48,230 nucleotides of DNA, taken from NCBI GenBank assembly GCA_029248185.1, contig JAQWJV010000050.1, forward strand, positions 1 to 48,230. Direction: 5' to 3'. The notes under the pieces were generated by a model. It did not search any database. It was given only the letters and a program-made list of their open reading frames with translations, and was not told the DNA's origin. This stretch comes from Flavobacteriaceae bacterium. Lineage in GTDB: Bacteria; Bacteroidota; Bacteroidia; Flavobacteriales; Flavobacteriaceae. Of the stretch, positions 3,068-19,798 are shown in pieces (positions within the stretch are counted from its first letter, which is position 1; every line of letters begins with the position of its first letter). The position numbers and the translations under genes were made by a program.

Positions 3068-3071
3068 CTAA

Positions 3072-4666: not shown

Positions 4667-4819
4667 AAACTAAAGCCAACAAATCATAAACTGCATTAAA
4701 ACCCAAATGCATCTGCAATGAGTAAAAGCATTATTAATGCAAATAAGAAAATGGATCAAAATACGATCACTTCTCAGCTCAGATATCTTTGAACGTGTTG
4801 ATTATTTGAATAAATAATA

Positions 4820-4854
4820 AAAGAAAAGCCCTCACATGCGGAGGGTATTTCTTT
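4820..4854 (-). terminator. Rho-independent terminator of the minus-strand uronate block
   Basis: A hairpin with arms AAAGAAA-a-GCCCTC and GAGGGT-a-TTTCTTT around a 7-base loop. Read on the minus strand it is followed by a T-rich tail (4825 down to about 4812). It lies about 120 bases beyond the stop of the DUF1080 gene at 4974 and fits as the end of that transcript. Confidence 0.7.
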
Positions 4855-4973
4855 CACTCCAATGGATAAATTAAATTCACTCTAACACATCGAAATCAGT
4901 GCCTTGAACTGAGATTCTAAACGATAGGGGCTTGTAAAAAGCAGCTAAAACTTAGACATCCATATAGGCAGCG

Positions 4974-5915
4974 CTATTGTGGAGTACGAATTGAAATATT
5001 TCTATACTCGACCGCTCCGTGATCTCCTTGCAACATAATTGGTCCGGGAGCCCCTTCATTGCTGTCTAAAGCACCTCCTGTGATCCCTGGGATGCTTTGA
5101 TCGTTGATGACCGTTTTACCATTAATCATGATGGTTACTCTTCGTCCAACTAGCGTAATGTCGAAAACTTGCCATTCTCCAGGTGGATTTGCAGCCATTT
5201 CATTCGGTGTTAAAAAACCATAAATAGCCCCAAAAAGAATTGAATTAGGGTCTTTACCATAACCGTCTTCAACCTGAACTTCATAACGTCCGCGCAGATA
5301 AATTCCCGAATTACTTCCTTTTGGATAACGAACCTCTAGATGCAATTGGAAATCTTCAAAAGTTTCATCGGTAACCAAATTACTTCCTGACGAAGTATTC
5401 TTTAAAACTCCGTCTTTTGCAATCCAATTGCTTTTATAAAGCTGATTTTCAGGATGCCATCCTTTAATGTTTTCACCATTAAAAAGAGATTTTGGTTTTC
5501 CGAAATTTACGGCCTCAGCTCTCACTAACTTGGGGGCTCTCACGCCCTCAAATGGATAGGCAATAGCATCACTTCCTAAAATAGTTCCTTTCAATTTTCC
5601 ATTCTCTAACTTTCCTGAGAAATGTAGATCTGTATTTCCATTCCATTGGGGTGGGATTGTAAAATCTATAATTCCATTGTGAAAATGTACTTCTGAAATC
5701 GGACGTGCACTCCCATTATATTCAACGAAATAACCTACTAAAGTACTTGACCCTGACAATACAACTTTAAGCCAAGATGGGGCAATATGATTTCCCATTT
5801 GAACATTTAAATCCCATTTTCCAATAATTGATTCTTTGTCTTGAGCTATAATATGATTACTAAACAAGAAAAACAGTACAATTAAGCGACTGCTGTTTTT
5901 AAGTGAATTTTTCAT
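4974..5915 (-). CDS. exported DUF1080 (3-keto-disaccharide hydrolase-like) protein
   Basis: 313 residues with a Sec signal peptide (about 1-24, ending FSNHIIAQ). Residues about 25-130 form a beta-rich N-terminal segment, and about 140-310 form the DUF1080 / PF06439 jelly-roll, with the family pattern LFNGENIKGWH, then the SGIYLRGRYEVQVED core and the closing GPIMLQGDHGAVEYRNI. PF06439 members of Bacteroidota have been shown to cleave 3-keto-glycosides made by Gfo/Idh dehydrogenases. That role here is inferred from family and context. It is the last gene of the minus-strand block, 35 bases after the DUF6503 gene and followed by the terminator at 4820-4854. It acts in the periplasm or outside the cell. 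Confidence 0.8.
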   Translation of the reverse strand: MKNSLKNSSRLIVLFFLFSNHIIAQDKESIIGKWDLNVQMGNHIAPSWLKVVLSGSSTLVGYFVEYNGSARPISEVHFHNGIIDFTIPPQWNGNTDLHFSGKLENGKLKGTILGSDAIAYPFEGVRAPKLVRAEAVNFGKPKSLFNGENIKGWHPENQLYKSNWIAKDGVLKNTSSGSNLVTDETFEDFQLHLEVRYPKGSNSGIYLRGRYEVQVEDGYGKDPNSILFGAIYGFLTPNEMAANPPGEWQVFDITLVGRRVTIMINGKTVINDQSIPGITGGALDSNEGAPGPIMLQGDHGAVEYRNISIRTPQ

Positions 5916-5950
5916 GTGTTTGATTTTAATAATTGATTAATTTATGAACC

Positions 5951-6664
5951 TTAATTGGATACACTAAGGTAATCTGTAGCTAAATATTTATTGTCTTTAT
6001 TGTAATACCAAGACCTATCTTTTGGCATTTTAATTCCATTTACCATTAACTCATTTTCCAAAACAATATACTCCCCATCATTCTTAGCCTCCTCATGAAA
6101 AAATTGATAGCGTCGAAGTTGATAGGTGTTTTTATCAAGATAAAAATACCACGTATCTCCTCCTGTTTCTGGTTCATAAGTTACTTTTAAAACCCAATAA
6201 GAAATACCATCAATTTCCTGCTCTAGCACGGAGTTAGCTAATCTTGTTCCTGGATCTTTTAGCTTCATTGGAAGTCCATACAAATAGGTGTAATAATCTT
6301 TATACATCGAAGCCCTTTCACAGCTAAGGCGATTCTTTTTGGCGATTGCTTCAGAAAAATCAGTAGTGCCATTGAAGGATAACAAACACTCTTGATTTTT
6401 AAGTTGAGAAATCAATTGGTTTCCCTCCACATCTACTGTTAAACGAAAAAAAGATTGATTAAAATCCAATTCAATTTTACTTTTACGGACAGGACGATTT
6501 GGACTTTTCATAGTAATAAAGAAGTTTCCCTTAAAACCATTCCATTTACCCTCAGGATCATGGTAAGCTATAGACCGATCCAATAAGTCTGAAGCAGTAA
6601 ACTCTTGTGCATAAGTTGCCATAAGGAGAAAAAAAACTGCAACTGAATAAATTATTTTTTTCAT
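5951..6664 (-). CDS. exported DUF6503-like protein
   Basis: 237 residues with a signal peptide (MKKIIYSVAVFFLLMATYAQ). The mature N-terminus LLDRSIAYHDPEGKW and the later DTWYFYLDKNTYQLRRYQF fit the DUF6503 family of Bacteroidota, whose beta-sheet fold recalls the lipoprotein carriers LolA/LolB. No catalytic motif is evident and the function is unknown. It sits between the PfkB kinase gene (39 bases upstream) and the DUF1080 gene (35 bases downstream) on the same strand, so it is probably part of that operon. A role in binding a lipid or hydrophobic glycoside in the periplasm is conceivable but unsupported. Confidence 0.65.
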   Translation of the reverse strand: MKKIIYSVAVFFLLMATYAQEFTASDLLDRSIAYHDPEGKWNGFKGNFFITMKSPNRPVRKSKIELDFNQSFFRLTVDVEGNQLISQLKNQECLLSFNGTTDFSEAIAKKNRLSCERASMYKDYYTYLYGLPMKLKDPGTRLANSVLEQEIDGISYWVLKVTYEPETGGDTWYFYLDKNTYQLRRYQFFHEEAKNDGEYIVLENELMVNGIKMPKDRSWYYNKDNKYLATDYLSVSN

Positions 6665-6703
6665 ATCTATGATATGATTGAAAATTAAATAAAATTAATT
6701 GAA

Positions 6704-7591
6704 TCAATCAGGGTGTACGAAAATTTTTAAATCTGATTTTGTAATTGTTGGATTTGCACCTTGGCTTGCCGCAACTAAAGCTCCCATTCCACAGGCATTA
6801 TTGAGGGTTGATTGAATGTCATCTCCCTCTACTAAGCCCAATACTAATGTAGCTAAAAAAGAATCGCCAGCACCTACCGTATCCACGACTTTAATTTTAT
6901 ATCCACTATTAAAATACCAGGTGCCAAAGTGTAACAAGACAGCTCCATGCATTCCGAGAGTAACACAAATAATTTGGGTCTTTGTTTTTTTGGCAATAAA
7001 CTCCATGTGCTGATTCAATGAATTAAAAGGAGATCCCATTTGTGTCGCAATGTCATACAATTCATCATCATTAAATTTGAGCATATCGGCAGCTTGCATC
7101 AATTCATTCAGTGTTTCCATGTCATAAAAAGGAGGGCGAAGATTCAAATCAAAAACACTAAATTTTGACACCTTTAAGAAGGATTGTAATGCCTTTTTTG
7201 AAGCTGCTCTTGCCGCCAAACTTCCAAAAACAAATGCTTCAGCATCTCGAACAGTCTTTATTGCAACTGCATTGGCTTCGATAAAGTCCCAAGCTGCATC
7301 TTCAGCCATTTCATATTGAGCAGAGCCTCCTTCATCTAAAGTTACAAACACCTTCCCTGTTTCATGTAAATGATCCTGTTGAATAAACGCTGATGACAAT
7401 CCTTGATTTTCTACTTGAATGAGTATTGCATTACCCAATTCGTCTTGACCAACTCGGCTAATGAATGACACTTTACCACCAAGACTAAAGAGTGTATTCG
7501 CTACATTGAAAGGTGCACCCCCCAACATTTTTCCAGTAGGAAACAAATCCCATAGAATTTCGCCAAAGCAAATTATGTTTTTAGCAGACAT
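6704..7591 (-). CDS. PfkB-family sugar kinase, fructokinase-like
   Basis: 295 residues, normal for ribokinase/PfkB enzymes. It has the N-terminal sugar-binding pattern CFGEILWDLFPTGKMLGGAP with the following FNVA, and the C-terminal anion-hole/catalytic signature VDTVGAGDSF, where the Asp is the catalytic base. ICVTLGMHGAVL is the typical strand before the nucleotide site. The overall look is closest to fructokinases, distinct from the 2-keto-3-deoxygluconate kinase at 16658. In this island it would phosphorylate a ketose released with the uronate, which is inference. An exact TAnnTTTG element at 7609-7616 suggests its own promoter, which would matter because the upstream neighbour is a gene remnant. 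Confidence 0.8.
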   Translation of the reverse strand: MSAKNIICFGEILWDLFPTGKMLGGAPFNVANTLFSLGGKVSFISRVGQDELGNAILIQVENQGLSSAFIQQDHLHETGKVFVTLDEGGSAQYEMAEDAAWDFIEANAVAIKTVRDAEAFVFGSLAARAASKKALQSFLKVSKFSVFDLNLRPPFYDMETLNELMQAADMLKFNDDELYDIATQMGSPFNSLNQHMEFIAKKTKTQIICVTLGMHGAVLLHFGTWYFNSGYKIKVVDTVGAGDSFLATLVLGLVEGDDIQSTLNNACGMGALVAASQGANPTITKSDLKIFVHPD

Positions 7592-7608
7592 TGAAATTAT
7601 TTAATATT

Positions 7609-7616
7609 CAAAAATA
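7609..7616 (-). promoter_or_regulatory. TAnnTTTG -7 element before the PfkB kinase gene
   Basis: The minus strand reads TATTTTTG, an exact match to the Bacteroidota -7 consensus, 17 bases before the kinase start at 7591. The -33 region is poor, so this is only a candidate. Confidence 0.35.
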
Positions 7617-7631
7617 TATTAATCTTTAAAC

Positions 7632-7814
7632 TTAAAGAAATTTAAAATTATAGGAAATGGAAACCAAAGCACCTCGCAAAACTGAAAGCTCGTAAGCTCC
7701 TAAAGGGCTACCTTTAAAAACATCGCCATCTTCTGAACCAAGACGTTGTGTGTAATAGATATTAAAGGGGTTTCGTCTACCATATAAATTGTAAACGGTA
7801 AAAGTCCAATCGCG
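7632..7814 (-). pseudogene. C-terminal end of a TonB-dependent receptor
   Basis: Sixty codons on the minus strand end with TAA at 7632-7634. They read like the last beta-strands of a TonB-dependent outer-membrane receptor: FTVYNLYGRRNPFNIYY, then LSVLRGALVSISYNFKF and an aromatic-rich terminus. An in-frame TAG at 7815-7817 and the loss of homology upstream mark a break point. The rest of the receptor, normally 700-1000 residues, is gone. The fragment abuts the ThuA fragment on the other strand, pointing to a single deletion through both genes. It shows that the island once had its own outer-membrane importer. Confidence 0.75.
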
Positions 7815-8237
7815 CTACATTCTGCTTCGGGATCTGAAAGAGATTGGCCATGGTATTGGTCCCTTTTAGGAGGGACTTTTGAACGCCATGCCCCTTTCCA
7901 AACCTTTAGTGTAAATGTAATTGACTCCTCCCATCCCTCTACAAAAAACTTAAAACAACGCTTTGAAGTTACAGATGAATGTTATTTTTTAAAAAAAATA
8001 AATCCAGATATTCATGTCCTTTTAGCTGCTGATCTAACTACAGTAAATGATCCCAAATTAGAGTCTTTTCCTTCAGATAATTTTTATAATAGTTTTCCAA
8101 TTGCTTGGTATCACAATTTTGAAGGAGGTCGACAATGGTATAGTTCATTGGGACACAGCAAGGAAAGCTATGCTCTTGAATTTTTTCAAAATCATTTGGA
8201 AGGAGGACTCAAATACCTACTTCAATTAAATGATTAA
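7812..8237 (+). pseudogene. ThuA-domain protein, C-terminal two thirds only
   Basis: A 141-codon open frame on the plus strand without a single Met, ending TAA at 8235-8237. It matches the ThuA (PF06283) fold: LHSASGSERDWPWYWSLLGG at the start, the HPST and DECYF motifs in the middle, and PIAWYHNFEGGRQWYSSLGH near the end, all family hallmarks. The 5' part with the nucleophile-like turn is missing and no start codon remains. ThuA proteins act with ThuB-type Gfo/Idh enzymes in 3-keto-disaccharide metabolism, so this remnant ties the island to that chemistry. It ends one base from the stop of the NIPSNAP gene. Confidence 0.8.
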
Positions 8238-8238
8238 A

Positions 8239-8982
8239 TTATAATTGAGAATATGCTAAGGGCTTTAAAAAAGTACGCTTAATGTCAGAAACAGTATTGG
8301 CATATTCAGGAAGTTTAGAAATACGTTTCCATTCAGGGTGTTCAATAAATTTATTCCAATTAGCATTGCGTTCTTCCATGTCTTTGAAGGATAGCATATA
8401 GGTCAATGCAGGCATCAATGGTCCAGACACTTGACTTCCAAAGAAGACAGCATGCAAACCTGTTTCCTCAAAAATGGTAAGTTCTCCATCATTAAACATA
8501 TCCGTCTTTCTGTCTACTGCATTTTCACTGTAGCCTTCGTAGGTTCTCAATTCAAACAATTGGGAGCCTTCAGCAGGTTTTACCATTTGAGGTAATCCAT
8601 CAAACGCAAAATAGAACGAACTACTATATCGTGTATAAACTTTTTTTGAAATAGGAATTGCATCATATACTTTCTTGTCACTTTGATAGGTTTTATCGCT
8701 GTTCATTTCATTTAAAACCTTTTCATAATGTGAAACTCCTTTGTAAGGAATTAAAAGTACTACTTGCTTAGGCGTTGGATCTCCTAAAGCTTCAAAAACA
8801 CCTATGTTTTCAACTCCGTTTCGATTTAATACTGGCAACAATGTTGATGACAAATAGTCATGTAACTCAGCTTCCGACCCGTTAAAGGGGATGGTATAGG
8901 TTCTTAATTCGTAATATTCTTTTTGACCAAAAACAAATGTTGAAAATAGTAGTAACAGTGGAATAAAATAATTTCTAAACAT
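8239..8982 (-). CDS. exported NIPSNAP-family protein
   Basis: 247 residues with a Sec signal peptide (MFRNYFIPLLLLFSTFVFGQ). Two NIPSNAP-like (dimeric alpha-beta barrel) repeats are visible: one from about 22, opening with YYELRTYTIPF, and one from about 140, opening with LFELRTYEGYSENA, each followed by the predicted four-strand pattern. NIPSNAP proteins have no settled enzymatic role. Exported versions recur next to Gfo/Idh and DUF1080 genes in Bacteroidota and Planctomycetota sugar clusters, from general knowledge of such clusters. It lies 132 bases downstream of uxuA on the same strand and may have its own promoter. Confidence 0.8.
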   Translation of the reverse strand: MFRNYFIPLLLLFSTFVFGQKEYYELRTYTIPFNGSEAELHDYLSSTLLPVLNRNGVENIGVFEALGDPTPKQVVLLIPYKGVSHYEKVLNEMNSDKTYQSDKKVYDAIPISKKVYTRYSSSFYFAFDGLPQMVKPAEGSQLFELRTYEGYSENAVDRKTDMFNDGELTIFEETGLHAVFFGSQVSGPLMPALTYMLSFKDMEERNANWNKFIEHPEWKRISKLPEYANTVSDIKRTFLKPLAYSQL

Positions 8983-9114
8983 AGATGATATAATTAATTT
9001 AATAGAAAGGTAAATATAAGATTAATAATAAAAGTACTTTGTCTTTTTTCGTATTGCCTTTTTTTATTTTTCCAACAAAAAGATTTTAAGTTCACGCTTA
9101 ATCCTCCCAACGAC

Positions 9115-10293
9115 TTAAAGGTCACTTCTGCTAATTCCCAATGCTAATCCTCTCAATTCAGCTAATCCTCTGAGCCTTCCAATTGCAGAATAACCCGGGT
9201 TGGTTGTTTTATTTAAATCATCCAACATTTGATGCCCATGATCAGGGCGCATGGGTATTTCCCAATCAATACGGCCTATGGCCTTACGTCTTTTTTCTTC
9301 TTGTAAAGCCGCTTTTACCATTGCATACATATCGACATCTCCTTCAAGGTGATTTGCCTCAAAAAAATTGCCTTTTTCATCTCTTTGTGTACTTCGAAAA
9401 TGAAGAAAGTGTATTCGTTCTGCATGATTAATAAACATTTCCAAAAGATCATTATCGGCTCTTACACCAAAAGAACCCGTACAAAATGTTAATCCATTGT
9501 TCAGGGAGGGGACGGCACTAAAGAGGGCTTCAATATCCGATGCAGTGCTTACAACTCTTGGTATTCCAAAAAGGGAGTGAGGGGGATCATCTGGATGAAT
9601 ACACAGCTTGACATTACAAGCTTCAGCAGTTGGTATTATAGCAGCTAAAAACTGTATCAAATGACTCCGTAAAGTATCCTGATCCAAATGGGAATAAGCC
9701 TCAATTCGTTGATTGAATTCTTCCATTGTATAGCCTTCCTCTGCTCCAGGTAAACCTGCGATTATACTCTTTGTTAAGGATTTGACTTCAATCTCTTCAA
9801 GCGATTCATAATACCGTTTTGCAGCTTCAATTTGTAGTGAGGAATAATCTTCTGTAGCGCGATTTCTTTTTACTACATATAAATCAAAAGCTCGTAGCGC
9901 GTCAATTTCAAAGGAAAGTGCAGTAGATCCATCCACTAAGGTTTTATATAAATGCGTTCGAGTCCAATCTAATACGGGCATAAAGTTGTAACAAACTGTA
10001 TAAATTCCACAGCTTGCTAGATTCTTGAGTGTTGATTTATAATTTTCAATGTACCGCTCGTAATCTCCAATCCGCTGTTTGATGTCCTCATGAATCGGCA
10101 CCGACTCTACTACTGCCCATTTTAAACCTGCATTTTGAATAAGTGTTTGGTGGATTTTAATGGCGTCAATACTCCAAACTGCTCCATTGGGAACATCGTG
10201 AAGAGCAGACACAATTGTTGTAGCACCTGCTTGACGTATTGCAGATAAAGGCACTGCATCTTGGGGACCATACCATCTAAAAGATTCTTTCAT
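9115..10293 (-). CDS. uxuA: D-mannonate dehydratase
   Basis: Converts D-mannonate to 2-keto-3-deoxy-D-gluconate, the committed step of the glucuronate branch, in the cytosol. At 392 residues it matches E. coli UxuA (394). The N-terminus FRWYGPQD and the metal-binding HPDDPP motif at 233-238 with the following PRVVST, then LTFCTGSFG and HFRS near the C-terminus, are diagnostic. It follows the SDR fructuronate reductase gene by 9 bases, so the substrate-forming and substrate-using enzymes are translated side by side. The start was taken at the ATG 10291-10293, since the family begins at this point. Confidence 0.95.
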   Translation of the reverse strand: MKESFRWYGPQDAVPLSAIRQAGATTIVSALHDVPNGAVWSIDAIKIHQTLIQNAGLKWAVVESVPIHEDIKQRIGDYERYIENYKSTLKNLASCGIYTVCYNFMPVLDWTRTHLYKTLVDGSTALSFEIDALRAFDLYVVKRNRATEDYSSLQIEAAKRYYESLEEIEVKSLTKSIIAGLPGAEEGYTMEEFNQRIEAYSHLDQDTLRSHLIQFLAAIIPTAEACNVKLCIHPDDPPHSLFGIPRVVSTASDIEALFSAVPSLNNGLTFCTGSFGVRADNDLLEMFINHAERIHFLHFRSTQRDEKGNFFEANHLEGDVDMYAMVKAALQEEKRRKAIGRIDWEIPMRPDHGHQMLDDLNKTTNPGYSAIGRLRGLAELRGLALGISRSDL

Positions 10294-10302
10294 ATCAATA
10301 CA

Positions 10303-11106
10303 TTAAACTCCTGAAAAAGCACTAAACCCTCCATCAATCGGCAGAACAATTCCGGTTACAAAACTTGCGCTATCGCTACATAAAAAGTGAATCGCTCCAT
10401 TGAGTTCTTCTGCTTTTCCAAAGCGTTTCATTGGAGTATTTTGGATGATTTTTTCACCACGCTCTGTATAGCTACCGTCTTCATTTAAAAGTAATTTTTG
10501 ATTCTGTTTACCAATAAAAAATCCAGGAGAAATAGCATTGACTCGAATTCCATCTCCAAATTTGAGTGCCATCTCAACAGCCATCCATCGTGTGAAATTT
10601 TCCATTGCTGCCTTCGCTGCAGAATACCCTACCACCCGAGTGAGGGCACGATCAACAGCCATAGAAGAATAATTAACAATTGCACCTTTTCCCTTCATAC
10701 TCATGGATTTTCCAAAAACTAGGGAAGGCAAAACAGTCCCTTTAAGATTCAAATTGATCACTTCATCAAAATCAGGGACAGACATATCAAAAATGGATTG
10801 ATCCTCCATGATCACGGCGCCTGGAAGATTTCCTCCTACCGCATTGATCAATACATCAATTTGACCAAACTGATCTATAATTTTGTTGTTTGTCTGTTTT
10901 AAGTCCTTTTCATCCATTACATCTACGACAAAGGCTGCAGCAACTGTTAAAGGAGTTAGTTTCTCCAAAAGCGCATCTAAAATTGATTGGTTTCTACCTA
11001 ATACAATGACTTTTGCCTTTGCATGGGCTAGACTTAAAGCTAAACTCCCCCCAAGTGTGCCTGTAGCTCCTGTGAGTACAATTACTTTATTTTGAAGTGA
11101 AAACAT
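10303..11106 (-). CDS. uxuB: D-fructuronate reductase, SDR type
   Basis: A 267-residue classical short-chain dehydrogenase: NAD(P)-binding TGATGTLGG at 12-20, the NAVGG motif near 88-92, Ser at about 147, and the catalytic YSAAK at 161-165. Position alone (9 bases on each side between a Gfo/Idh gene and uxuA) supports reduction of D-fructuronate to D-mannonate. The same SDR-type enzyme is used by Bacillus (UxuB/YjmF) and many Bacteroidota in place of the long-chain E. coli UxuB. The C-terminal GIVLPIDGGFSAFSGV is typical of this subgroup. The gluconate 5-dehydrogenase branch of the SDR family looks similar, so the specificity is inferred from context. Confidence 0.82.
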   Translation of the reverse strand: MFSLQNKVIVLTGATGTLGGSLALSLAHAKAKVIVLGRNQSILDALLEKLTPLTVAAAFVVDVMDEKDLKQTNNKIIDQFGQIDVLINAVGGNLPGAVIMEDQSIFDMSVPDFDEVINLNLKGTVLPSLVFGKSMSMKGKGAIVNYSSMAVDRALTRVVGYSAAKAAMENFTRWMAVEMALKFGDGIRVNAISPGFFIGKQNQKLLLNEDGSYTERGEKIIQNTPMKRFGKAEELNGAIHFLCSDSASFVTGIVLPIDGGFSAFSGV

Positions 11107-11115
11107 ATTATAGTT

Positions 11116-12309
11116 CTAAAAATTATAGGACGAATCCCAATAGATTGTTTTATTTTGATCCATAGCACGAATCCCCATATCTACAGCAAATGCCGTTTTT
11201 GATCCAGAAATGACATCAGACAAAGGCGCTTTAGAGTTCACAATAGAATCTCGAAAATCTTCAAGGGCTTGCTGAGTAGGGTCAATATGAGCGAAATCTA
11301 ATGGAATACCTTTTCCTGCTTCCCAATTCGTTGTAGCTCCTGAAACACCATCTACATCACCATACTCTTTCTTGAAGGAACCTTCAGGATAAAACCAGGC
11401 TTTAGCATAATCCAAAACCATTGTTCCTTTATCTCCCATGACATGAATTTTATAGTCGTCTTTTGCATTTCCTGTCAAACAGGTATAACTTGCTTTTACC
11501 CCATTGGGATAGGCATAAATGACATGGGTATTATCATAGGTTTCTCTTCCGTCTTTCCAGTAGTCTATTCCGCCAAAACCAGTAACTTTTTCTGGATGAG
11601 AATCAAACAGCCAATTGGCAAAATCAATTTGATGAGAACTAAGCTCTGCTAACAAACCGAAGGAGTATTCTCGATACATTCTCCAATTAATTTGTCTTTC
11701 GAATTTTTGATCAGGAACGGGTCTTCTCCAATTTCCATTACGATTCCACTGAGCTCTGATACCATTTACTTTTCCAATTTTACCCCCTTGAATTAACTCA
11801 ACTGCATGTGAATATAATCTAGAACTGTGGTATTGATGGCCCGTTTGAAATATTTTTTTAGGGTTAGTCAAAACTTTGTTGACCAATTGGACGGTATCCT
11901 TAGCCCCTTTTACCATCGTTTTTTCACAATAAACATGCACATTGGCATCCACAGCCTCAGTAGTAATTTGGGCATGCATACTCAAAGGTGTGCTAATAAT
12001 CACTGCATCCAATTCTTTGTTTTCGAGAAGATCCAAATGACGAATATAGGTCTTCGCTTTAGGGGCGATTTGAGAAGCTTCCTTTAATCGGAAAGGTAGC
12101 GTGTCGCACAAAGCTACCATCGATACTCCCTCTATTTTAGAAAGAATACGCATCAAACCCATCCCCCGACTTCCCGTTCCAATAATTCCTATCCGAACTG
12201 TATTTAAACGTTTTAAATCAAGAATTGAAAATCCACTTTTTGGGTAAGCCAGAGAGGCAGAGAGTAGGGTTGCAGCTGTGCCTATAAATTGCCTCCTGTC
12301 ATTTTTCAT
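11116..12309 (-). CDS. Gfo/Idh/MocA oxidoreductase with Tat-like signal
   Basis: 397 residues. The N-terminus MKNDRRQFIGTAATLLSA is a twin-arginine-like signal, so it is probably exported folded with its nicotinamide cofactor. The Rossmann motif GIIGTGSRG lies at 41-49. The usual EKP motif is CEKT (128-131), a variant seen in part of the family. The GFO/IDH C-terminal domain follows, with a likely catalytic His in the SSHQIDFANW segment. It probably oxidises or reduces a sugar or glycoside hydroxyl, and C3 oxidation would match the ThuB and AFR-like relatives. It is the first gene of the minus-strand block, divergent from the DUF1080 gene at 12454, with a candidate promoter at 12332-12363. 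Confidence 0.82.
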   Translation of the reverse strand: MKNDRRQFIGTAATLLSASLAYPKSGFSILDLKRLNTVRIGIIGTGSRGMGLMRILSKIEGVSMVALCDTLPFRLKEASQIAPKAKTYIRHLDLLENKELDAVIISTPLSMHAQITTEAVDANVHVYCEKTMVKGAKDTVQLVNKVLTNPKKIFQTGHQYHSSRLYSHAVELIQGGKIGKVNGIRAQWNRNGNWRRPVPDQKFERQINWRMYREYSFGLLAELSSHQIDFANWLFDSHPEKVTGFGGIDYWKDGRETYDNTHVIYAYPNGVKASYTCLTGNAKDDYKIHVMGDKGTMVLDYAKAWFYPEGSFKKEYGDVDGVSGATTNWEAGKGIPLDFAHIDPTQQALEDFRDSIVNSKAPLSDVISGSKTAFAVDMGIRAMDQNKTIYWDSSYNF

Positions 12310-12331
12310 TTGTTTTAAAAATTTTGATTTA

Positions 12332-12363
12332 TAAAAGTATTAGAAATCTAGAATTCATTACAA
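12332..12363 (-). promoter_or_regulatory. candidate promoter of the minus-strand uronate block
   Basis: On the minus strand, TTG (12361-12363) is separated by 21 bases from TACTTTTA (12332-12339), near the Bacteroidota -33 TTTG / -7 TAnnTTTG arrangement. It lies 22 bases before the Gfo/Idh start. The -7 has one mismatch. Confidence 0.35.
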
Positions 12364-12453
12364 CTTTAAAAAAGTTTATATTCGTTAATAATGAGCTTTC
12401 AATATAACAAAATGAATTTAGAAGTAAATACTCAACCTATCCTATTTTACTCA

Positions 12454-13845
12454 ATGGAACTATTTTTAAGAAAATTGTGTCCATTGATACTGTTTATTTG
12501 TTTAATAACATCTAACCCCATAGTAGCTCAAAATGCACAATGGGAAATGTTATTTGAAGAAGATACCCTTGATGCTTTTGAGCAACTAAATGGTGATGCT
12601 GCCTTTAATATAAACAAGGGAGTGTTGGTCGGTGTTTCCAAACTTAATACCCCAAATAGTTTTTTGGCCACCAAAAAAAGATATTCCGATTTTATACTCG
12701 AATTTGAAGTCATGATTGACAACGGATTAAATTCTGGTGTGCAATTTAGAAGCAATAGATATCCTGAATTCAAAAATGGTAGAGTCCATGGGTATCAATG
12801 TGAAATTGAAACCAGTTCCAGAAAATGGGCTGGAGGAATTTATGATGAAGCGCGTCGTGGATGGTTGTATCCTATGACCAGAAATCCAAAGGGTCAAGAT
12901 GCATTCAAAACAGGAGAATGGAATCATTATCGTATTGAAGCGATTGGAAGTTCTATTAAAACGTATATTAATGGTATTCAATGTGCAAATTTAGTAGATG
13001 ATTTAACATCAGAGGGTTTTATAGCTTTTCAAGTACATAGCATCAATAACAAAGAAGAGGATGGAAAAAAAGTACGCTGGAGAAATATAAAGATAATGAC
13101 CCAGAACTTGGAAAAATTTAAAACCCCAACCGCAACTCATGCAGATGAAATTAGTTATTTAAACAATACACTCACTCCCAACGAAGTTCGAAAAGGTTAT
13201 CGATTATTATGGGATGGAAAAACTACGCAAGGTTGGAAAAGTGCAAATAAATCCAGTTTCCCAAAAAAAGGCTGGCTGATTCAGGAAGGAAGTCTCATCG
13301 TGGAAGCCTCAATGGGATTGGAATCTGAAAACGGAGGAGATATTGTTACCCAAGAAACTTTTTCCGATTTTGAATTGAGTGTTGATTTTAAGCTTACCAA
13401 AGGAGCTAATAGTGGTATCAAATACTTTGTCAACACAATATTAAACAAAGGAAAAGGATCTGCTATTGGATTGGAATTTCAGGTTTTAGATGATCGTAAT
13501 CATCCCGATGCAAAGCAAGGGAAAAATGGTAATCGAACCGTAGGTTCTTTATACGATTTAATCCGTGCAGAAAATCAAACTACTGGAGGAAGAGGGAAAA
13601 ATTTCAAAGGAATTAACACTTGGAATAACGCTCGAATTGTAGTCAAAGACAGTCATGTTGAACACTGGCTGAACCATGTACTAGTCGTTTCATACGATCG
13701 ACACAGCCAAGCTTTTCAAGCATTAGTTGAAAAAAGTAAATATGAAAAATGGGAAGGTTTTGGAACTTGGGCACAAGGTCATATTCTTCTCCAAGACCAC
13801 GGTGATCAGGTGGCCTTTAAAAACATCAAAATCAAAGAATTTTAA
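12454..13845 (+). CDS. exported protein with two DUF1080 domains
   Basis: From the chosen start the protein has 463 residues. The ATG at 12454 gives a clean signal peptide (MELFLRKLCPLILFICLITS, cut after VAQ); the longer frame from 12391 would put 21 polar residues before it. Two PF06439-like domains follow. The first (about 30-220) has a short EDTLDAFEQLNG opening and the SGVQFRSNRY core. The second (about 245-460) opens with LLWDGKTTQGWKS and has SGIKYFVN, LEFQVLDD and the closing GHILLQDHGDQVAFKNIKI. It would cleave 3-keto-glycosides outside the inner membrane if the family chemistry holds. It heads the plus-strand block, 12 bases before a Tat-signal Gfo/Idh gene, an arrangement that supports a working pair. 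Confidence 0.82.
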   Translation: MELFLRKLCPLILFICLITSNPIVAQNAQWEMLFEEDTLDAFEQLNGDAAFNINKGVLVGVSKLNTPNSFLATKKRYSDFILEFEVMIDNGLNSGVQFRSNRYPEFKNGRVHGYQCEIETSSRKWAGGIYDEARRGWLYPMTRNPKGQDAFKTGEWNHYRIEAIGSSIKTYINGIQCANLVDDLTSEGFIAFQVHSINNKEEDGKKVRWRNIKIMTQNLEKFKTPTATHADEISYLNNTLTPNEVRKGYRLLWDGKTTQGWKSANKSSFPKKGWLIQEGSLIVEASMGLESENGGDIVTQETFSDFELSVDFKLTKGANSGIKYFVNTILNKGKGSAIGLEFQVLDDRNHPDAKQGKNGNRTVGSLYDLIRAENQTTGGRGKNFKGINTWNNARIVVKDSHVEHWLNHVLVVSYDRHSQAFQALVEKSKYEKWEGFGTWAQGHILLQDHGDQVAFKNIKIKEF

Positions 13846-13857
13846 ACAACAAACATC

Positions 13858-15219
13858 ATGGATAGTACTAGAAGAAATTTTATTAAAAAAACAAGCTTAG
13901 CAACAGGAGCACTAGGCCTAGGAATCACCTCTTCAATGAGTGCCAAAAGCTATCGTAAAATACTCGGTGCAAATGATCGTGTCAGAGTAGGAATTATTGG
14001 TTTCTCAAATCGCTGTAAACATTCCCTTATTCCGGCATTTACGAATCATCAAGAAAAAATGAATTTTGAATTGGTGGGGGTTTCTGATATTTGGAATCGG
14101 AGAAGAGAAGAAGGTGCGGATTATCTCAAACAAAAAACGGGAAATAAAGCTATAAAATACAGAAACAACGAAGAACTATATGAAAAGAATGATGTTGATG
14201 CTGTGATCATTTCTACAGCCGATTTTCAACATGCGCTGCATACTGTTCAAGCAGCCAATGCAAAAAAAGACGCCTATGTTGAAAAGCCTTTTGCTGAAAC
14301 CATGGAAGATGCGCGTGTGGGACGAAAGGCTGTTGAAGAATCTGGAATTGTTTTTCAAATTGGTTCTCAAAGAAGAAGTGGACGGAACTATCATGCCGCC
14401 AATAAATTCATTAAAGAAGGAAAATTTGGAGACCTCGTAATGGTTGAAATGAGTTGGAATGTAAATCAACCTGGACGCTGGAGACTCCCCCAATTGACAA
14501 AAGAAATTCGAGAATCAGATACCGACTGGAAACGATACTTAATGAATCGTCCTTATGAAGCTTGGGACCCCCGAAAATATCTTGAATATCGTCTTTTCTG
14601 GCCCTATTCCTCAGGAATTCCCGGACAGTGGATGTCTCATCAAATTGACACCGTTCATTGGTTTTCAGGCTTGAATCACCCAAGAAGTGTAGCTGCTAAT
14701 GGAGGTATCTATTTATGGAAAGACGGTAGAAAAAACTATGACACCATGACTTCTGTTTTTGATTACGGACCCGCTGATGATTTAGATAGCGGCTTTCAAG
14801 TGGTTTACTCATCACGCTTTACCAATTCAGCCTGGGGTACAAAAGAAATCTATTACTCCAATGGAGGTGAATTAAACCTTCAAACCAATAAGGTAACACC
14901 CAATGGGGGATTAAAAAATCGTCAAGCCAAAGCAATGGGCATGGAAGCTAATTTATTACCAGAATCTAATTTGTCTGATATTTCTACAAAGATTGTCACC
15001 TCTGCAAATACAGGGGTGGATAACATGACCTCTATGCACATGCTCAACTGGATGGAGTGTGTTCGAAGTAGAAAACAAACCAATGGTCCAATTGAAGCTG
15101 GATATAACCATTCTATTGCCAACATTATGACTACAGCTGCATTAAGAACTGGTTTAAAAGCCACATTTGATGAAACAACTCAAAATGTAATTGTGGGAGG
15201 TAAGGTTTTTCAGTATTAA
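13858..15219 (+). CDS. Tat-exported Gfo/Idh/MocA oxidoreductase
   Basis: 453 residues. A twin-arginine signal (TRRNFIKKTSLATGALGLG, 4-22) leads into the Rossmann motif VGIIG at 44-48 and the canonical EKP at 142-144. The substrate domain carries GSQRRSGRNYHAA and WMSHQIDTVHWF, whose Lys and His residues are typical of exported family members in Planctomycetota and Bacteroidota. Such proteins usually hold NAD(P) tightly and exchange hydride between two sugars. It is probably the partner of the DUF1080 protein just upstream (12-base gap), oxidising a glycoside at C3 before elimination or hydrolysis. That role is inferred. Confidence 0.85.
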   Translation: MDSTRRNFIKKTSLATGALGLGITSSMSAKSYRKILGANDRVRVGIIGFSNRCKHSLIPAFTNHQEKMNFELVGVSDIWNRRREEGADYLKQKTGNKAIKYRNNEELYEKNDVDAVIISTADFQHALHTVQAANAKKDAYVEKPFAETMEDARVGRKAVEESGIVFQIGSQRRSGRNYHAANKFIKEGKFGDLVMVEMSWNVNQPGRWRLPQLTKEIRESDTDWKRYLMNRPYEAWDPRKYLEYRLFWPYSSGIPGQWMSHQIDTVHWFSGLNHPRSVAANGGIYLWKDGRKNYDTMTSVFDYGPADDLDSGFQVVYSSRFTNSAWGTKEIYYSNGGELNLQTNKVTPNGGLKNRQAKAMGMEANLLPESNLSDISTKIVTSANTGVDNMTSMHMLNWMECVRSRKQTNGPIEAGYNHSIANIMTTAALRTGLKATFDETTQNVIVGGKVFQY

Positions 15220-15247
15220 ACTTCATAATATTCTAGCTATACATTAA

Positions 15248-16645
15248 ATGAAAAATTTAATTCACAACAATTTCTTACTCGAAAATAAATACGCTGAATT
15301 ACTGTATCATGAATATGCCAAAACCTTACCCATAATAGATTACCACAATCATTTATCACCCAAAGCAATTGCTGAAGACCAACGTTTTGAAAACATTACT
15401 GAAGTTTGGATTGCAGGAGACCATTATAAATGGAGGGCGATGCGTACTTTGGGAGTTAATGAAAAATACATCACGGGAGATTCCTCTGATGAAGAAAAGT
15501 TTAATCATTGGGCAAAAACCTTACCTTTTACCTTAAGAAATCCACTTCATCACTGGTCTCAACTTGAATTAGCACGCTATTTTAATGAATTTGAATTATT
15601 AACTCCTGATAATGCGCAAAGAATTTATCAAGACACCAAGGCGCAAATACAAACTGCAAATTTCTCAGCAAGAAACTTGTTGACTCAAATGAATGTGAAA
15701 GTGCTTTGTACCACTGAAGATCCAATTGACACGCTTGAACATCATCAACAGTTAATTAAATCTAATTTTACTGTTAAAGTAAGTACGGCCTTTCGTCCAG
15801 ATAAATCCATTCTTATAAGAAATCCAGACTATAATGATTATATAGATTTATTGTCTATAGCTGCTTGTATTGAAATTTCTGACTACGATGATTTATTACA
15901 AGCCTTAGAAAAACGCATCTCTTTTTTTCATGATAACAGATGTCGCCTTTCCGATCATGGATTAACTCATGTACCCTATAAAATTACTGATCGTGCAACT
16001 GTAAAAAAGATTTTTGCTAAACGAAGAGCTGGAAAAAAAGTATCCCCCCTTGAGGAAGAACAATTCCAAACCGCCATTTTATTGTTTCTAGGAGAGCAAT
16101 ACCACAAAAAAGGTTGGGTGCAACAATTTCATTTAGGAGCCATGCGCAATAACAATACGCGTATGTTACTACAATTAGGCCCAGATACCGGATGGGATTC
16201 CATTGGAAACTATCCAATAGCACATGATCTTTCTCGTTTTTTAGATCAATTAGACACCCACAATCAGTTAAGCAAAACTATTTTGTATAACTTAAACCCG
16301 AGTGACAATGAAATGATGGCGACCATGATTGGAAACTTCAACGATGGATCATTAAAAGGAAAAATCCAATGGGGTTCGGGATGGTGGTTTTTAGATCAAT
16401 TAGACGGTATGACGAATCAAATCAACACTTTATCCAATATGGGGCTCATAAGTTGTTTTATTGGAATGTTAACCGATTCAAGAAGTTTTTTATCATTCCC
16501 GCGGCATGAATATTTCAGACGTTTATTATGCAATATTTTTGGGAATGAAATTGAAAAAGGAATACTTCCCAATGATCCTAAATGGATCGGGAAAATTATT
16601 TCTGATATTAGTTTTTATAACGCAAAAGAATATTTTAATTATTGA
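15248..16645 (+). CDS. uxaC: glucuronate/galacturonate isomerase
   Basis: Interconverts D-glucuronate with D-fructuronate and D-galacturonate with D-tagaturonate, the first intracellular step for both hexuronates. Length 465 (E. coli UxaC 470). Amidohydrolase-type metal motif IIDYHNHLSPKAIAED near 29-44, and the C-terminal GWDSIGNYPIAHDLSRFLD and GSGWWFLDQLDGM segments that define the UxaC family. It lies 28 bases after the Gfo/Idh gene and 12 bases before kdgK, clearly in one transcript. The enzyme serves both arms of the divergent island. Confidence 0.96.
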   Translation: MKNLIHNNFLLENKYAELLYHEYAKTLPIIDYHNHLSPKAIAEDQRFENITEVWIAGDHYKWRAMRTLGVNEKYITGDSSDEEKFNHWAKTLPFTLRNPLHHWSQLELARYFNEFELLTPDNAQRIYQDTKAQIQTANFSARNLLTQMNVKVLCTTEDPIDTLEHHQQLIKSNFTVKVSTAFRPDKSILIRNPDYNDYIDLLSIAACIEISDYDDLLQALEKRISFFHDNRCRLSDHGLTHVPYKITDRATVKKIFAKRRAGKKVSPLEEEQFQTAILLFLGEQYHKKGWVQQFHLGAMRNNNTRMLLQLGPDTGWDSIGNYPIAHDLSRFLDQLDTHNQLSKTILYNLNPSDNEMMATMIGNFNDGSLKGKIQWGSGWWFLDQLDGMTNQINTLSNMGLISCFIGMLTDSRSFLSFPRHEYFRRLLCNIFGNEIEKGILPNDPKWIGKIISDISFYNAKEYFNY

Positions 16646-16657
16646 TTAAGACTAAAC

Positions 16658-17698
16658 ATGAATAAAGTTGTAACATTTGGTGAGATCATGCTTCGCCTTT
16701 CACCTCCAGGATTTTTAAGATTTTCACAAACAAATTCTTTTGATGTTGTTTATGGAGGTGGGGAATCAAATGTAGCTGTTTCCCTCGCCAACTTCGGTAT
16801 CGATGTAGATTTCGTTTCCCGATTACCCCAGAACGATTTGGGAGATTGTGCTTTAATGGAACTGCGAAAACGAGGAGTTAATACACAAAACATACTGCGT
16901 GGAGGGGATCGCCTTGGGATCTATTTTTTAGAAACCGGAGCCGTCAGTAGAGGAAGTAAAGTGGTTTATGATCGAGCGCATTCTTCTGTTTCTGAAATCC
17001 AACCCAAAATGGTAAACTGGAAAAAAGTATTTGAAGGAGTTCAGTGGTTCCACTGGACAGGGATCACACCTGCTATTTCCCAGAGTGCTGCTGACACCTG
17101 CCTTGAGGCAGTTAAGATTGCAAGTTCGCTAGGAATTACCATCTCTACTGATTTAAATTATCGTGCAAAACTTTGGAAATACGGAGGAGATCGTGAAGCA
17201 ATAATGACAGAACTCACCTCCTATTGCGATATTATTCTAGGAAATGAAGAAGATGCCGAAATGCATTTTGGCATCCAACCCGAAGGTTTAGACATCACCA
17301 CACAAGGGAATGAAGTAAAGGCGAGTGCTTTTCTTTCCGTATGTCAACAAATGATGGAAAAATTTCCAAAAGCTAAAAAAGTCATTACAACCTTGAGAGG
17401 ATCTATTTCAGCTTCGCAGAATACTTGGGCAGGAGTGCTCTACGACGGAAATATAATGTACGAAAGCCCTCAATATCAGATCACAGATATTGTTGATCGT
17501 GTTGGGGGAGGTGATTCCTTTATGGGAGGGCTCATTTATGGCTTGCTTACCTATCCTGAGAATGATCAAAATGCCTTAAACTTTGCCGTTGCAGCCTCTT
17601 GTTTAAAACACACAATAAAAGGTGATGCTAACTTAGTCAGCATCGCAGAAGTAGAAAAATTAATGAGCGGGGATGCCTCAGGCAGAGTAGCTCGATAA
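16658..17698 (+). CDS. kdgK: 2-keto-3-deoxygluconate kinase
   Basis: Phosphorylates KDG, the common product of UxuA and UxaA, to KDPG using ATP. 346 residues of the PfkB family, with MLRLSPPG and GGGESNVAVSLANFG at the sugar-binding N-terminus and the catalytic DRVGGGDSFMGGL near the C-terminus (Asp base in GGGDSF). It differs clearly from the fructokinase-like PfkB protein at 6704. The next gene is the KDPG aldolase, 8 bases away, which makes the kinase assignment nearly certain. The MLRLSPP opening is typical of Bacteroidota KDG kinases. Confidence 0.93.
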   Translation: MNKVVTFGEIMLRLSPPGFLRFSQTNSFDVVYGGGESNVAVSLANFGIDVDFVSRLPQNDLGDCALMELRKRGVNTQNILRGGDRLGIYFLETGAVSRGSKVVYDRAHSSVSEIQPKMVNWKKVFEGVQWFHWTGITPAISQSAADTCLEAVKIASSLGITISTDLNYRAKLWKYGGDREAIMTELTSYCDIILGNEEDAEMHFGIQPEGLDITTQGNEVKASAFLSVCQQMMEKFPKAKKVITTLRGSISASQNTWAGVLYDGNIMYESPQYQITDIVDRVGGGDSFMGGLIYGLLTYPENDQNALNFAVAASCLKHTIKGDANLVSIAEVEKLMSGDASGRVAR

Positions 17699-17706
17699 AA
17701 AAAAGT

Positions 17707-18372
17707 ATGGCACAATTTACAAGATTACAAGTAATCGATCAAATGCAAAAAACAGGCTTGGTTCCTCTTTTTTATCATCCAGATATTTTAATTGCTAAAC
17801 AGGTACTTCAAGCTTGTTATGAGGGTGGAGCAAGACTGCTTGAATTTACACATCGAGGGGATTTCGCTCATGAGGTATTTCGAGATCTTATCATTTTTGC
17901 TCAAGAACAGCTTCCTGAAATGATATTAGGGGTTGGCTCTATTACAGACGCTGCTTGTGCAAGTGATTATATAAAAAACGGAGCTAACTTTGTGGTAACT
18001 CCTGTTTTTAGAGAGGATATCGCCATTGTATGCAACCGTAGAAAAGTACTTTGGTCTCCTGGTTGCGGAACCCTAACAGAAATTGCAATCGCTGAAGAAC
18101 GCGGAGCAGAAATTGTAAAACTATTTCCAGGCAGTGTTTATGGTCCTGAATTTGTTAAAGCCATAAAAGGACCTCAACCCTGGACGAATATTATGCCTAC
18201 AGGAGGAGTAACTACCGCTCCTGATAATTTAAAAAGCTGGTTTGATGCAGGAGTTAGTTGTGTGGGCATGGGATCCAAGTTAATTTCAAAAGAAATTATT
18301 GAGAAAAAAGATTTTGGAACGTTAAAAACCACGGTAAATGAAGTTCTTAAATGTATCCAAAAATTAAAATAG
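17707..18372 (+). CDS. eda: 2-keto-3-deoxy-6-phosphogluconate aldolase
   Basis: Splits KDPG into pyruvate and glyceraldehyde 3-phosphate, closing the pathway. 221 residues, a class I aldolase with catalytic Glu in EFTHRG (E46) and the Schiff-base Lys in IVKLFPGS (K138). GVGSITD, VTPVF, SPGCGT and MPTGGV complete the phosphate-binding barrel. The sequence belongs to the Bacteroidota type, which is slightly longer than the 213-residue E. coli Eda. It is 6 bases upstream of the TRAP solute-binding protein gene, so catabolism and uptake are one transcript. Confidence 0.94.
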   Translation: MAQFTRLQVIDQMQKTGLVPLFYHPDILIAKQVLQACYEGGARLLEFTHRGDFAHEVFRDLIIFAQEQLPEMILGVGSITDAACASDYIKNGANFVVTPVFREDIAIVCNRRKVLWSPGCGTLTEIAIAEERGAEIVKLFPGSVYGPEFVKAIKGPQPWTNIMPTGGVTTAPDNLKSWFDAGVSCVGMGSKLISKEIIEKKDFGTLKTTVNEVLKCIQKLK

Positions 18373-18378
18373 CGCCTT

Positions 18379-19353
18379 ATGAAACCGCAGCTCTTTTTTC
18401 TTGCTCTAATTTTCTTTGTCATCTCATGTTCGGGTGAATCTAAAATACGGGTGATTCGTTTGGGTCACGGTTTGGATATAACACATTCTGTTCACCAAGC
18501 CATGCTCAAAGCGGATGAATACCTTAATGAAAATTCAAAAGGTAAAATGCGGATTCAAATTTATCCCAACCAACAATTAGGTAGCGAAAGAGAATGTTTA
18601 GAGTTACTACAAATAGGAAGCTTAGACATGACTAAAGTTTCAGGTGCAGTTATGGAAAATTTCGCTCCCAACATGCGGATTTTTGGTCTTCCTTTTCTTT
18701 TTGATGACAAAGAACATTTGTTTCGAGTGTTAGATGGACCCATTGGAAAATCATTGTTAAAAGAAGGAGAAAATTATTGGCTTAAGGGTCTAGGATATTA
18801 TGACTCAGGAAGCCGGAGTTTTTACACTCGTGATCGTCCAATCAACACTCCCAAAGATCTTGAAGGTTTGAAAATTAGAGTTCAAGAAAGTGCTTCTGCT
18901 TTTGAAATGGTCAAACAACTGGGGGGCTCACCTACTCCCATTTCTTGGGGTGAATTATACACTTCCATTCAACAAGGTGTAGTTGATGCCGCCGAAAATA
19001 ATCCTCCAAGCTTTTATCTTTCAAGACACTACGAAGTATGTAAATATTATAGTATTGATGAGCATACCATGATCCCTGACATCCTTTTGGCAAGTACGCA
19101 CTTATGGAATCGTCTGAGCCAACAAGAACAAACGTGGCTCCAAGAAGCACTTGATCGATCCATTCTGGACCAAAGAAGACTATGGACCATTTCTGAGAAC
19201 GAATCCTTACAGGCTGTAATTGATGCAGGCGTCAAAGTTACATATCCAGAAAAAAGCACTTTTCAAGAAGCAACCAAAACCATGTACGAGGACTTCAAAA
19301 AAAATCCTGCAATCGCCAGTTTAATTGATCAGATACAGAATGAAAAAAATTAG
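18379..19353 (+). CDS. TRAP transporter solute-binding lipoprotein (DctP type)
   Basis: 324 residues. The N-terminus MKPQLFFLALIFFVISC ends in a lipobox with Cys17, so it should be lipid-anchored in the periplasm rather than free. The DctP/SiaP fold is shown by GSERECLELLQIGSLDM, the GLKIRVQES motif (163-171), whose Arg167 binds the substrate carboxylate in this family, and DAAENNPPSF. Related DctP proteins bind hexuronates, which fits its place directly after eda and before UxaB/UxaA. It captures the acid sugar for the DctQM pair encoded next. The dctQ start overlaps its last codons by 14 bases. Confidence 0.9.
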   Translation: MKPQLFFLALIFFVISCSGESKIRVIRLGHGLDITHSVHQAMLKADEYLNENSKGKMRIQIYPNQQLGSERECLELLQIGSLDMTKVSGAVMENFAPNMRIFGLPFLFDDKEHLFRVLDGPIGKSLLKEGENYWLKGLGYYDSGSRSFYTRDRPINTPKDLEGLKIRVQESASAFEMVKQLGGSPTPISWGELYTSIQQGVVDAAENNPPSFYLSRHYEVCKYYSIDEHTMIPDILLASTHLWNRLSQQEQTWLQEALDRSILDQRRLWTISENESLQAVIDAGVKVTYPEKSTFQEATKTMYEDFKKNPAIASLIDQIQNEKN

Positions 19354-19798
19354 AACTCAAGTTGATCGCTTTGTTGGGAAACTACTGGTACTTATCTTAG
19401 GTATTATGGTAATTAATGTATTATGGCAAGTATTTAGCAGATATTTCACCGATAACCCAAGCTCGTTTACAGATGAATTAGCACGATATTTAATGATGTG
19501 GTTGGGCATACTTGGGGCAGCATATGTTGGAGGAAGAAATGAACATGTTGCCATTGACTTTTTTGCCAAAAAAACTAGTCCTAAAATACAAAAGTGGCTA
19601 AAAGGGTTGATCTCACTGAGTATTATCACTTTTGCGTCACTAGGATTTGTTATTGGTGGAGGTCGGCTGGTATACATCACAATGAAATTACAGCAATATT
19701 CCCCATCCCTTCAAATTCCACTTGCCTTGGTTTACGCTGTTGTACCCATTAGCGGATTACTCCTCATTTTTTATAAAATCACTCCAAACTCAGAATAA
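19340..19798 (+). CDS. TRAP transporter small membrane subunit (DctQ type)
   Basis: 152 residues from the ATG at 19340, which gives MKKIRTQVDRF. A longer reading from 19325 adds only five residues and is less likely. Four hydrophobic segments are visible, with the DctQ features VNVLWQVFSRY, the LARYLMMWLGILGAAY stretch, and VAIDFF in the second half. It bridges the lipoprotein DctP and the large DctM subunit in the inner membrane. Its start overlaps the dctP end by 14 bases, and its stop is 3 bases before dctM, so translation of the three subunits is coupled. Confidence 0.9.
   Translation: MKKIRTQVDRFVGKLLVLILGIMVINVLWQVFSRYFTDNPSSFTDELARYLMMWLGILGAAYVGGRNEHVAIDFFAKKTSPKIQKWLKGLISLSIITFASLGFVIGGGRLVYITMKLQQYSPSLQIPLALVYAVVPISGLLLIFYKITPNSE

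Follow-up and report, generated by a model that had tools for sequence, protein, structure and literature searches.

The window, by which we mean the whole stretch of DNA analyzed, is 48,230 nt long (positions 1-48,230, forward strand, of contig JAQWJV010000050.1, Flavobacteriaceae bacterium GCA_029248185.1). It contains an island in which two oxidoreductases of the Gfo/Idh type, GFO_A and GFO_B, and K2, a protein with two DUF1080 domains, are encoded together with the enzymes of hexuronate catabolism. This coupling is real and is found repeatedly. The best single reading, which in our judgement has an even chance of being right, is a periplasmic oxidation-elimination-hydration route coupled to hexuronate catabolism, that is, a pathway of known kind (C3 oxidation, elimination and hydration) joined here to hexuronate catabolism, with a uronoside as the putative substrate. 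GFO_B, exported by the twin-arginine translocation (Tat) system, or a distinct Gfo/Idh protein (GFO_B2) in other relatives, would oxidize C3 of the glycoside's sugar, and GFO_A would reduce the 3-keto-uronate back or perform the oxidation itself. The freed hexuronate, most likely D-glucuronate, would be imported by a tripartite ATP-independent periplasmic (TRAP) carrier and degraded by UxaC, UxuB, UxuA, KdgK and KdgA, with UxaB and UxaA as an added galacturonate branch in the window strain. What was observed is which genes are present and in what order, their export signals, how far they are conserved, how often they occur together, and the folds of the proteins. If it is true, a recently described kind of glycosidic-bond breakage is tied to the standard uronate pathway of marine bacteria, and uronides may be used even where no lyases or glycosidases lie beside the uronate genes.

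Organization and recurrence of the gene unit

The core of the island is divergent (Table 1). UxuA-UxuB-GFO_A occupy 9115-12309 on the minus strand and K2-GFO_B-UxaC-KdgK-KdgA-TRAP-UxaB-UxaA occupy 12391-24174 on the plus strand. The divergent starts are 81 b apart, and the gaps are 12 b from K2 to GFO_B and 28 b from GFO_B to UxaC; such short gaps and the recurrence in other genomes take the arrangement beyond chance. In the region 8239-24174 the minus-strand run reads GFO_A, UxuB, UxuA and NIPSNAP, and the plus-strand run ends with UxaB-UxaA. An earlier note made from the sequence had described a full hexuronate pathway, and all seven of its enzymes (UxaC, UxuB, UxuA, UxaB, UxaA, KdgK and KdgA) are present together with DctP, DctQ and DctM, UxaB and KdgK being assigned by Pfam family and position. 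Most of the islands that could be read in relatives showed no UxaB-type gene, and UxaA was also found in G025, G012 and G023. The same note had reported that lyases and glycoside hydrolases are absent; apart from DUF1080, the 38 listed window open reading frames of at least 120 amino acids (30 + 8) matched no family of glycoside hydrolases or polysaccharide lyases, GH4 included, the rest of the genome not being searched. GH4 NAD-dependent glucuronidase is an oxidative uronide cleaver. The assembly (1.91 Mb, 53 contigs, about 89% complete) encodes one UxaC and six DUF1080 domains spread over five proteins.

UxaC is present near full length in 17 of the 24 same-genus genomes searched. All 14 genomes with a readable UxaC island carry K2 with GFO_B or GFO_B2 in it (in G012, G018 and G022 the contigs are broken), and GFO_A is in 13 of these islands, the contig of G021 ending before it. 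K2 is found in 16 of the 17 genomes with UxaC versus three of the seven without it (Fisher p 0.014). The slot between K2 and UxaC is exchangeable, holding either GFO_B or GFO_B2 (25-31% identity; window 13858-15219 compared with L056 10703-12034). A GFO_B orthologue with 83-99% identity was found in 10 of 36 same-genus genomes; in eight of ten GFO_B genomes K2-GFO_B is followed by DUF6807 and a third DUF1080 protein and further on, where the contig reaches, by a LacI-type regulator and SusCD (Pfam on L043 only). G025 is like the window strain in having neither DUF6807 nor the third DUF1080 protein, and G012 is not readable. A second UxaC island in G024 has GFO_A and no K2. G006 was considered as a case of truncated K2 and rejected, since its contig stops inside the gene. 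Among 15 order-level relatives, UxaC is present in two and K2 in none; one order-level relative, L167, has UxaC among genes that look pectin-type by eye, without K2 or GFO_A.

To survey the family, 149 genomes were sampled evenly across the family to which Eudoraea adriatica belongs, and matches to GFO_A and K2 were accepted at E 1e-90 or better. GFO_A was present in 23 genomes, UxaC in 55 and K2 in 41. UxaC accompanied GFO_A in 23 of 23 genomes and was found in 32 of the 126 others (Fisher 3e-12), and it accompanied K2 in 39 of 41 and was found in 16 of the 108 others (Fisher 1.5e-20); Fisher values over these genomes ignore kinship and lifestyle. All 23 GFO_A genomes also have K2. The distance between K2 and UxaC on one contig is at most 10 kb in nine genomes and at most 20 kb in 12, and one of the nine, G215, is of the own-genus type. 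The earlier note had suggested a survey of this kind and named restriction to this strain as counter-evidence; the association extends well beyond it.

To collect relatives of GFO_A, ten GFO_A sequences were searched against one genome per species. This gave 305 relatives, and the best 80 of the 305, all titled as Bacteroidetes-group bacteria, were examined. UxuA, UxaC or K2 is near GFO_A in 76 of the 80 loci, and none of them was in the stretch available for L092, L109, L139 and L154. Fifty loci lie outside the own-genus clade and were found by GFO_A alone; 29 of them have UxuA or UxaC, 33 have K2 and 14 have both. The neighbors come in several orders: K2-GFO_B2-GFO_A-UxuB-UxuA-UxaC-TRAP in L117, and in L152 with one gene between; UxuA-UxaC-TRAP-K2-GFO_B2-GFO_A in L147 of Flagellimonas pacifica, L150 and L151; and UxaC-K2-GFO_B2-GFO_A in L122 and in L124 of Allomuricauda spongiicola. 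In Muriicola (L180), K2-GFO_B-DUF6807-DUF1080-LacI lies opposite UxaC-TRAP. These results support the view that Gfo/Idh, DUF1080 and hexuronate genes form a recurring unit. In many genera K2, GFO_B2 and GFO_A stand together as a unit of three genes. UxaC is present in 20 of 20 named GFO_A genomes, including those in which the triad is far from uxu genes. Two genera have a GH115 protein (Pfam, L137 1-2023) or its 61% identical homologue (L155 1-1861) near SusCD and K2-GFO_B2-GFO_A. In L103, genes for a heparinase-like lyase, BNR_4, GH88 and PhoD-like proteins (958-7185) lie upstream of an operon, GFO_A-uxu-TRAP, that has no DUF1080 gene.

Two same-genus genomes, G004 and G008, have lost the unit. 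A genome-wide search at E 1e-40 gave no match to K2 in either, and UxaC is left only as a C-terminal fragment. L172 (9970-12062) and L173 (9896-10130) hold island-gene fragments only, UxaC, DctP and UxuA in one and UxaC and KdgK in the other. The co-loss is weak evidence of shared function because adjacent genes can go in one deletion; in G008, where pieces of UxaC, DctP and UxuA are left, more than one deletion is likely. K1, the DUF6503 protein and the PfkB kinase (4974-7591) were considered as parts of the system and rejected: the K1 homologue and DUF6503 persist in both genomes that lost the unit, and the kinase in G004 only. The inclusion of K1 in the system, as the earlier note had it, was thus not upheld.

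Predicted chemistry of the exported proteins

Export of both Gfo/Idh dehydrogenases and of K2 is predicted from their sequences. The RR-type signals of GFO_A and GFO_B are conserved in same-genus alignments (10 and 9 rows), in agreement with the earlier assignment of two Tat-signal Gfo/Idh proteins. In a wider set of 39 GFO_A sequences the first arginine alone is invariant, and RK occurs at some loci. TatC is encoded in the genome of the window strain, and K2 has a hydrophobic N-terminal segment, judged by eye. Both K2 (273.6 bits) and K1 (154.5 bits) exceed the DUF1080 (PF06439) cut-off of 26.8, and the three exported domains reported before are indeed there, one in K1 and two in K2. K2 is 56% identical to BT3469 (4JQT), which has the same two-domain build and is titled a putative glycosyl hydrolase. 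Its domain 2 is about 35% identical to structures of BT2157 type that bear the titles 3-keto-2-hydroxy-glucal hydratase and 3-keto-glycoside eliminase/hydratase, and the available text of PMC9007349 terms BT2157 a 3-ketotrehalose hydrolase. The proposed action of DUF1080 on 3-keto sugars therefore agrees with the titles of the solved homologues; plain hydrolysis as the cleavage step does not, since these titles say eliminase/hydratase. The available part of PMC5673643 proposes that DUF1080 cleaves the xanthan backbone in an organism that also has a pathway for glucuronate. We infer the direction of each Gfo/Idh step, the division of labor between the K2 domains and the uronoside nature of the glycoside.

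Structure models were obtained with a mean predicted local distance difference test score of 86.6 for K2 and 82.3 for GFO_A. When the PDB was searched with the GFO_A model by Foldseek, the P2B11 glucuronide-3-dehydrogenase ranked first (8TDI; E 4.4e-24, 20% identity, full length), in a near-tie with other acid-sugar and inositol dehydrogenases; the ranking therefore points to an enzyme group and not to a substrate. Since 8TDI was released in 2024 under that title, glucuronide 3-oxidation as such is already known, and the strong claim of novelty made before is not supported. The coupling itself is not described in the available parts of the open-licence papers PMC9007349, PMC8563793, PMC12550630, PMC11668362, PMC7660916, PMC5673643, PMC10628242 and PMC11501099. 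On the uptake side, the five PDB sequences closest to DctP include 4N8Y, 4N91, 4X8R and 4MHF as well as 4OVR, with 4N8Y among the nearest; the ligands of the first four are uronates according to what is available of PMC11668362 and PMC7660916. This nearness to solved uronate binders is in keeping with the idea that the liberated acids would feed the TRAP importer.

The genes can be compared with described systems. Caulobacter lactose 3-dehydrogenase and DUF1080 likewise have a proposed periplasmic C3 oxidation followed by DUF1080 action, with fitness data; unlike the window proteins, LacABC is a membrane-bound three-part dehydrogenase with a neutral substrate (both as given in the available text of PMC9007349). 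All the enzymes of the classical UxaC-UxuAB/UxaAB-Kdg pathway with TRAP uptake are also in the window; in L167 this pathway differs from the window in having UxaC with pectin-type genes and neither K2 nor GFO_A. The 3-keto route of glycan breakdown known from BT2156-BT2160 of Bacteroides thetaiotaomicron and from relatives is reportedly the subject of Nasseri et al. 2024, and individual dehydrogenase PDB entries presumably belong to this system. Like the window, BT2156-BT2160 combines exported Gfo/Idh proteins with a DUF1080 eliminase/hydratase (PDB titles 8TDA, 8V31, 8RR2 and 9FBE). The window differs in several respects: its Gfo/Idh proteins score far below the BT_2158 and BT_2159 family cut-offs, it has the two-domain K2 plus a hexuronate pathway and a TRAP carrier in the block, and besides UxuA it has no TIM-barrel isomerase-like partner.

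Substrate and alternative explanations

Several points weigh against a uronide-directed oxidation-elimination-hydration route. The activities of GFO_A, GFO_B and K2 are predictions. GFO_A has a myo-inositol dehydrogenase at Foldseek rank 3 (E 8.5e-24, nearly tied with 8TDI), sialate (RgNanOx) and sulfoquinovose enzymes also follow 8TDI closely, and 8TDI is only fifth by sequence profile. The glycoside 3-dehydrogenase family BT_2158_fam, with a cut-off of 750, was not reached by GFO_A (74.7 bits) or GFO_B (82.7 bits), nor by GFO_B2 (159.5 bits), and by NCBIfam neither GFO_A nor GFO_B is an equivalog of any named 3-dehydrogenase. DUF1080 alone is no proof of 3-keto chemistry because the DUF1080 protein THTE_1561 is reported to be an endo-xanthanase/lichenase (PMC9007349, available text), and growth on raffinose-family sugars was unimpaired when BT2157 or BT2158 was deleted (PMC11501099, available text). 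Among the 50 outside loci, 19 have K2 without UxuA or UxaC, 15 have uxu genes without K2 and two have neither. On the GFO_A tree (79 loci and the window, L081 being too short) the association of K2 with the uronate label was not significant, with 7 and 9 label changes and a median p of 1 for independent pairs, in a test constrained in part by where the loci end. Two genomes, G005 and G016, have the K2-GFO_B cassette next to genes that by eye are of rhamnose type; UxaC was not found in these two genomes, yet UxuA-UxuB-GFO_A and MIOX are kept (loci L039, L044, L159 and L160). Finally, UxaC and K2 may both be markers of large-genome polysaccharide degraders, and MIOX offers an alternative source of glucuronate.

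A stronger form of the preferred reading, which we put forward tentatively and hold to be less probable than the general one, is a dedicated glucuronide-specific pathway, widespread in marine Flavobacteriaceae, that would free periplasmic glucuronate without lyase or glycosidase, the Gfo/Idh protein in the slot setting the glycoside. Strains with MIOX would then eat both halves of glucuronosyl-inositol, a lipid head-group type. The main rival of the preferred reading, an unlikely one in our estimate, is an inositol route in which MIOX makes glucuronate from myo-inositol, the periplasmic Gfo/Idh and DUF1080 proteins act on an inositol glycoside to liberate inositol, alone or together with glucuronate, and the window strain has lately lost MIOX. 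MIOX is above cut-off in 15 of the 23 same-genus genomes searched and lies inside the island in 10 of these (L048 at 13948-14811, L049, L050, L052, L054, L159, L160, L163, L169 and L174); L163, L169 and L174, together with L192, have it in or beside UxaC islands. In the remaining MIOX genomes it is on a contig apart from the island (G011) or its place is not readable (G012, G018, G020 and G022). The profile cut-off search found no MIOX in the genome of the window strain, where the MIOX slot is a scar: the tail of a TonB-dependent receptor abuts a cut ThuA at about 7811/7812, which indicates a deletion. The near-identical relative L081 matches the window at 95.9% over the 489 b that lead up to the scar and continues with ThuA and a C-terminal part of MIOX until the contig ends. 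In other relatives the slot holds varying sets of MIOX, DUF4249, TonB receptor, ThuA or GH95 genes. The window strain probably lost the segment, an assembly error being the alternative. The ThuA remnant noticed before, like the NIPSNAP gene, was found, and the receptor remnant beside it recasts it as part of a scar.

Over the 149 genomes, where 22 strong MIOX matches were counted and three weak ones above cut-off left out, UxaC accompanies MIOX in 22 of 22 and K2 in 20 of 22, and within UxaC-positive genomes MIOX is associated with K2 (p 0.014) but not with GFO_A (p 0.58). The gene order MIOX-SSF-UxaC-TRAP in Flagellimonas flava and the high rank of inositol dehydrogenases for GFO_A also agree with the inositol route. 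Since MIOX co-occurs with UxaC and K2, the hexuronate genes may also serve inositol use, and K2 may have a connection with inositol glycosides. However, no export signal was noticed in MIOX, which would then be cytoplasmic while GFO and K2 are predicted to be exported, the solute-binding protein of the TRAP carrier looks like a uronate binder, and 19 of the 39 genomes with K2 and UxaC have no strong MIOX. The lack of association with GFO_A and the separate contig of MIOX in G011 also count against this route.

A similarly unlikely alternative is a broad-specificity 3-keto glycoside system whose hexuronate neighbors reflect shared regulation in a degrader of algal polysaccharides, the uronates coming from lyases and hydrolases elsewhere. 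Related systems take several sugars (PMC9007349, available text), the K2 cassette also adjoins the rhamnose-type genes, the triad occurs without nearby uxu genes in Eudoraea and others, and the K2-less GFO_A-uxu locus L103 has GH88 and the heparinase-like lyase. Nonetheless, the short gaps in K2-GFO_B-UxaC, the recurrence of the coupling in different gene orders and the genome-wide tracking of UxaC by K2 argue against this alternative. We consider it improbable that GFO_A stands outside bond cleavage, interconverting uronate epimers or reducing a keto-uronate for the UxuB branch, with K2-GFO_B as a separate cassette. In the 15 outside loci mentioned above, some of them on short contigs, uxu genes come after GFO_A and the visible stretch contains no K2, and GFO_A directly precedes UxuB there and in the own genus; against this stand the K2 gene somewhere in every GFO_A genome of the family sample and the K2-GFO_B2-GFO_A unit. 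Taken together, the results partly confirm what the earlier note observed and partly support its interpretation, and cultured strains of Allomuricauda, Flagellimonas and Eudoraea are offered for testing the oxidation-elimination-hydration route.

Features of the window

Table 1. Genes and remnants in and around the island
Feature	Position	Strand	Evidence
K2, predicted exported, two DUF1080 (3keto-disac_hyd) domains	12391..13845	+	PF06439 273.6 bits
GFO_A, predicted exported Gfo/Idh oxidoreductase	11116..12309	-	PF01408/PF22725/PF02894; RR signal
GFO_B, Tat-signal Gfo/Idh oxidoreductase	13858..15219	+	PF01408, TIGR01409
UxuB-type short-chain dehydrogenase/reductase, D-mannonate oxidoreductase	10303..11106	-	NCBIfam PRK08277 347.8 bits, cut-off 281
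UxuA, mannonate dehydratase	9115..10293	-	PF03786 E 1.7e-124
UxaC, uronate isomerase	15248..16645	+	PF02614 668.8 bits; sole match in own genome
KdgK, 2-keto-3-deoxygluconate kinase (PfkB family)	16658..17698	+	Pfam family and position; no NCBIfam cut-off passed
KdgA, 2-keto-3-deoxy-6-phosphogluconate aldolase	17707..18372	+	PF01081
DctP, TRAP solute-binding protein, lipoprotein-like N-terminus (by eye)	18379..19353	+	PF03480
DctQ	19325..19798	+	PF04290
DctM	19802..21097	+	PF06808
UxaB-type tagaturonate reductase (mannitol dehydrogenase family)	21122..22549	+	PF01232/PF08125 and position only
UxaA, altronate dehydratase, optional branch	22546..24174	+	PF20629/PF04295
NIPSNAP protein	8239..8982	-	PF07978; often adjoins UxuA across genus
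ThuA remnant, from residue 133 of 274-aa homologue	~7812..8222	+	tblastn 56% identity
TonB-dependent receptor remnant, last 58 residues	7638..7811	-	tblastn 79% identity
PfkB fructokinase-like protein, neighbor	6704-7591	-	Pfam
DUF6503 protein, neighbor	5951-6664	-	Pfam
K1, single-domain DUF1080 protein, neighbor	4974..5915	-	PF06439

Two further observations were made in the window. A luciferase-like monooxygenase gene at 3072-4208, of alkanesulfonate monooxygenase kin (below cut-off), adjoins a sodium:solute symporter gene at 1526-3067. At 1003-1325 on the minus strand, short frames that by eye resemble a LuxR-like helix-turn-helix are possibly a decayed regulator.

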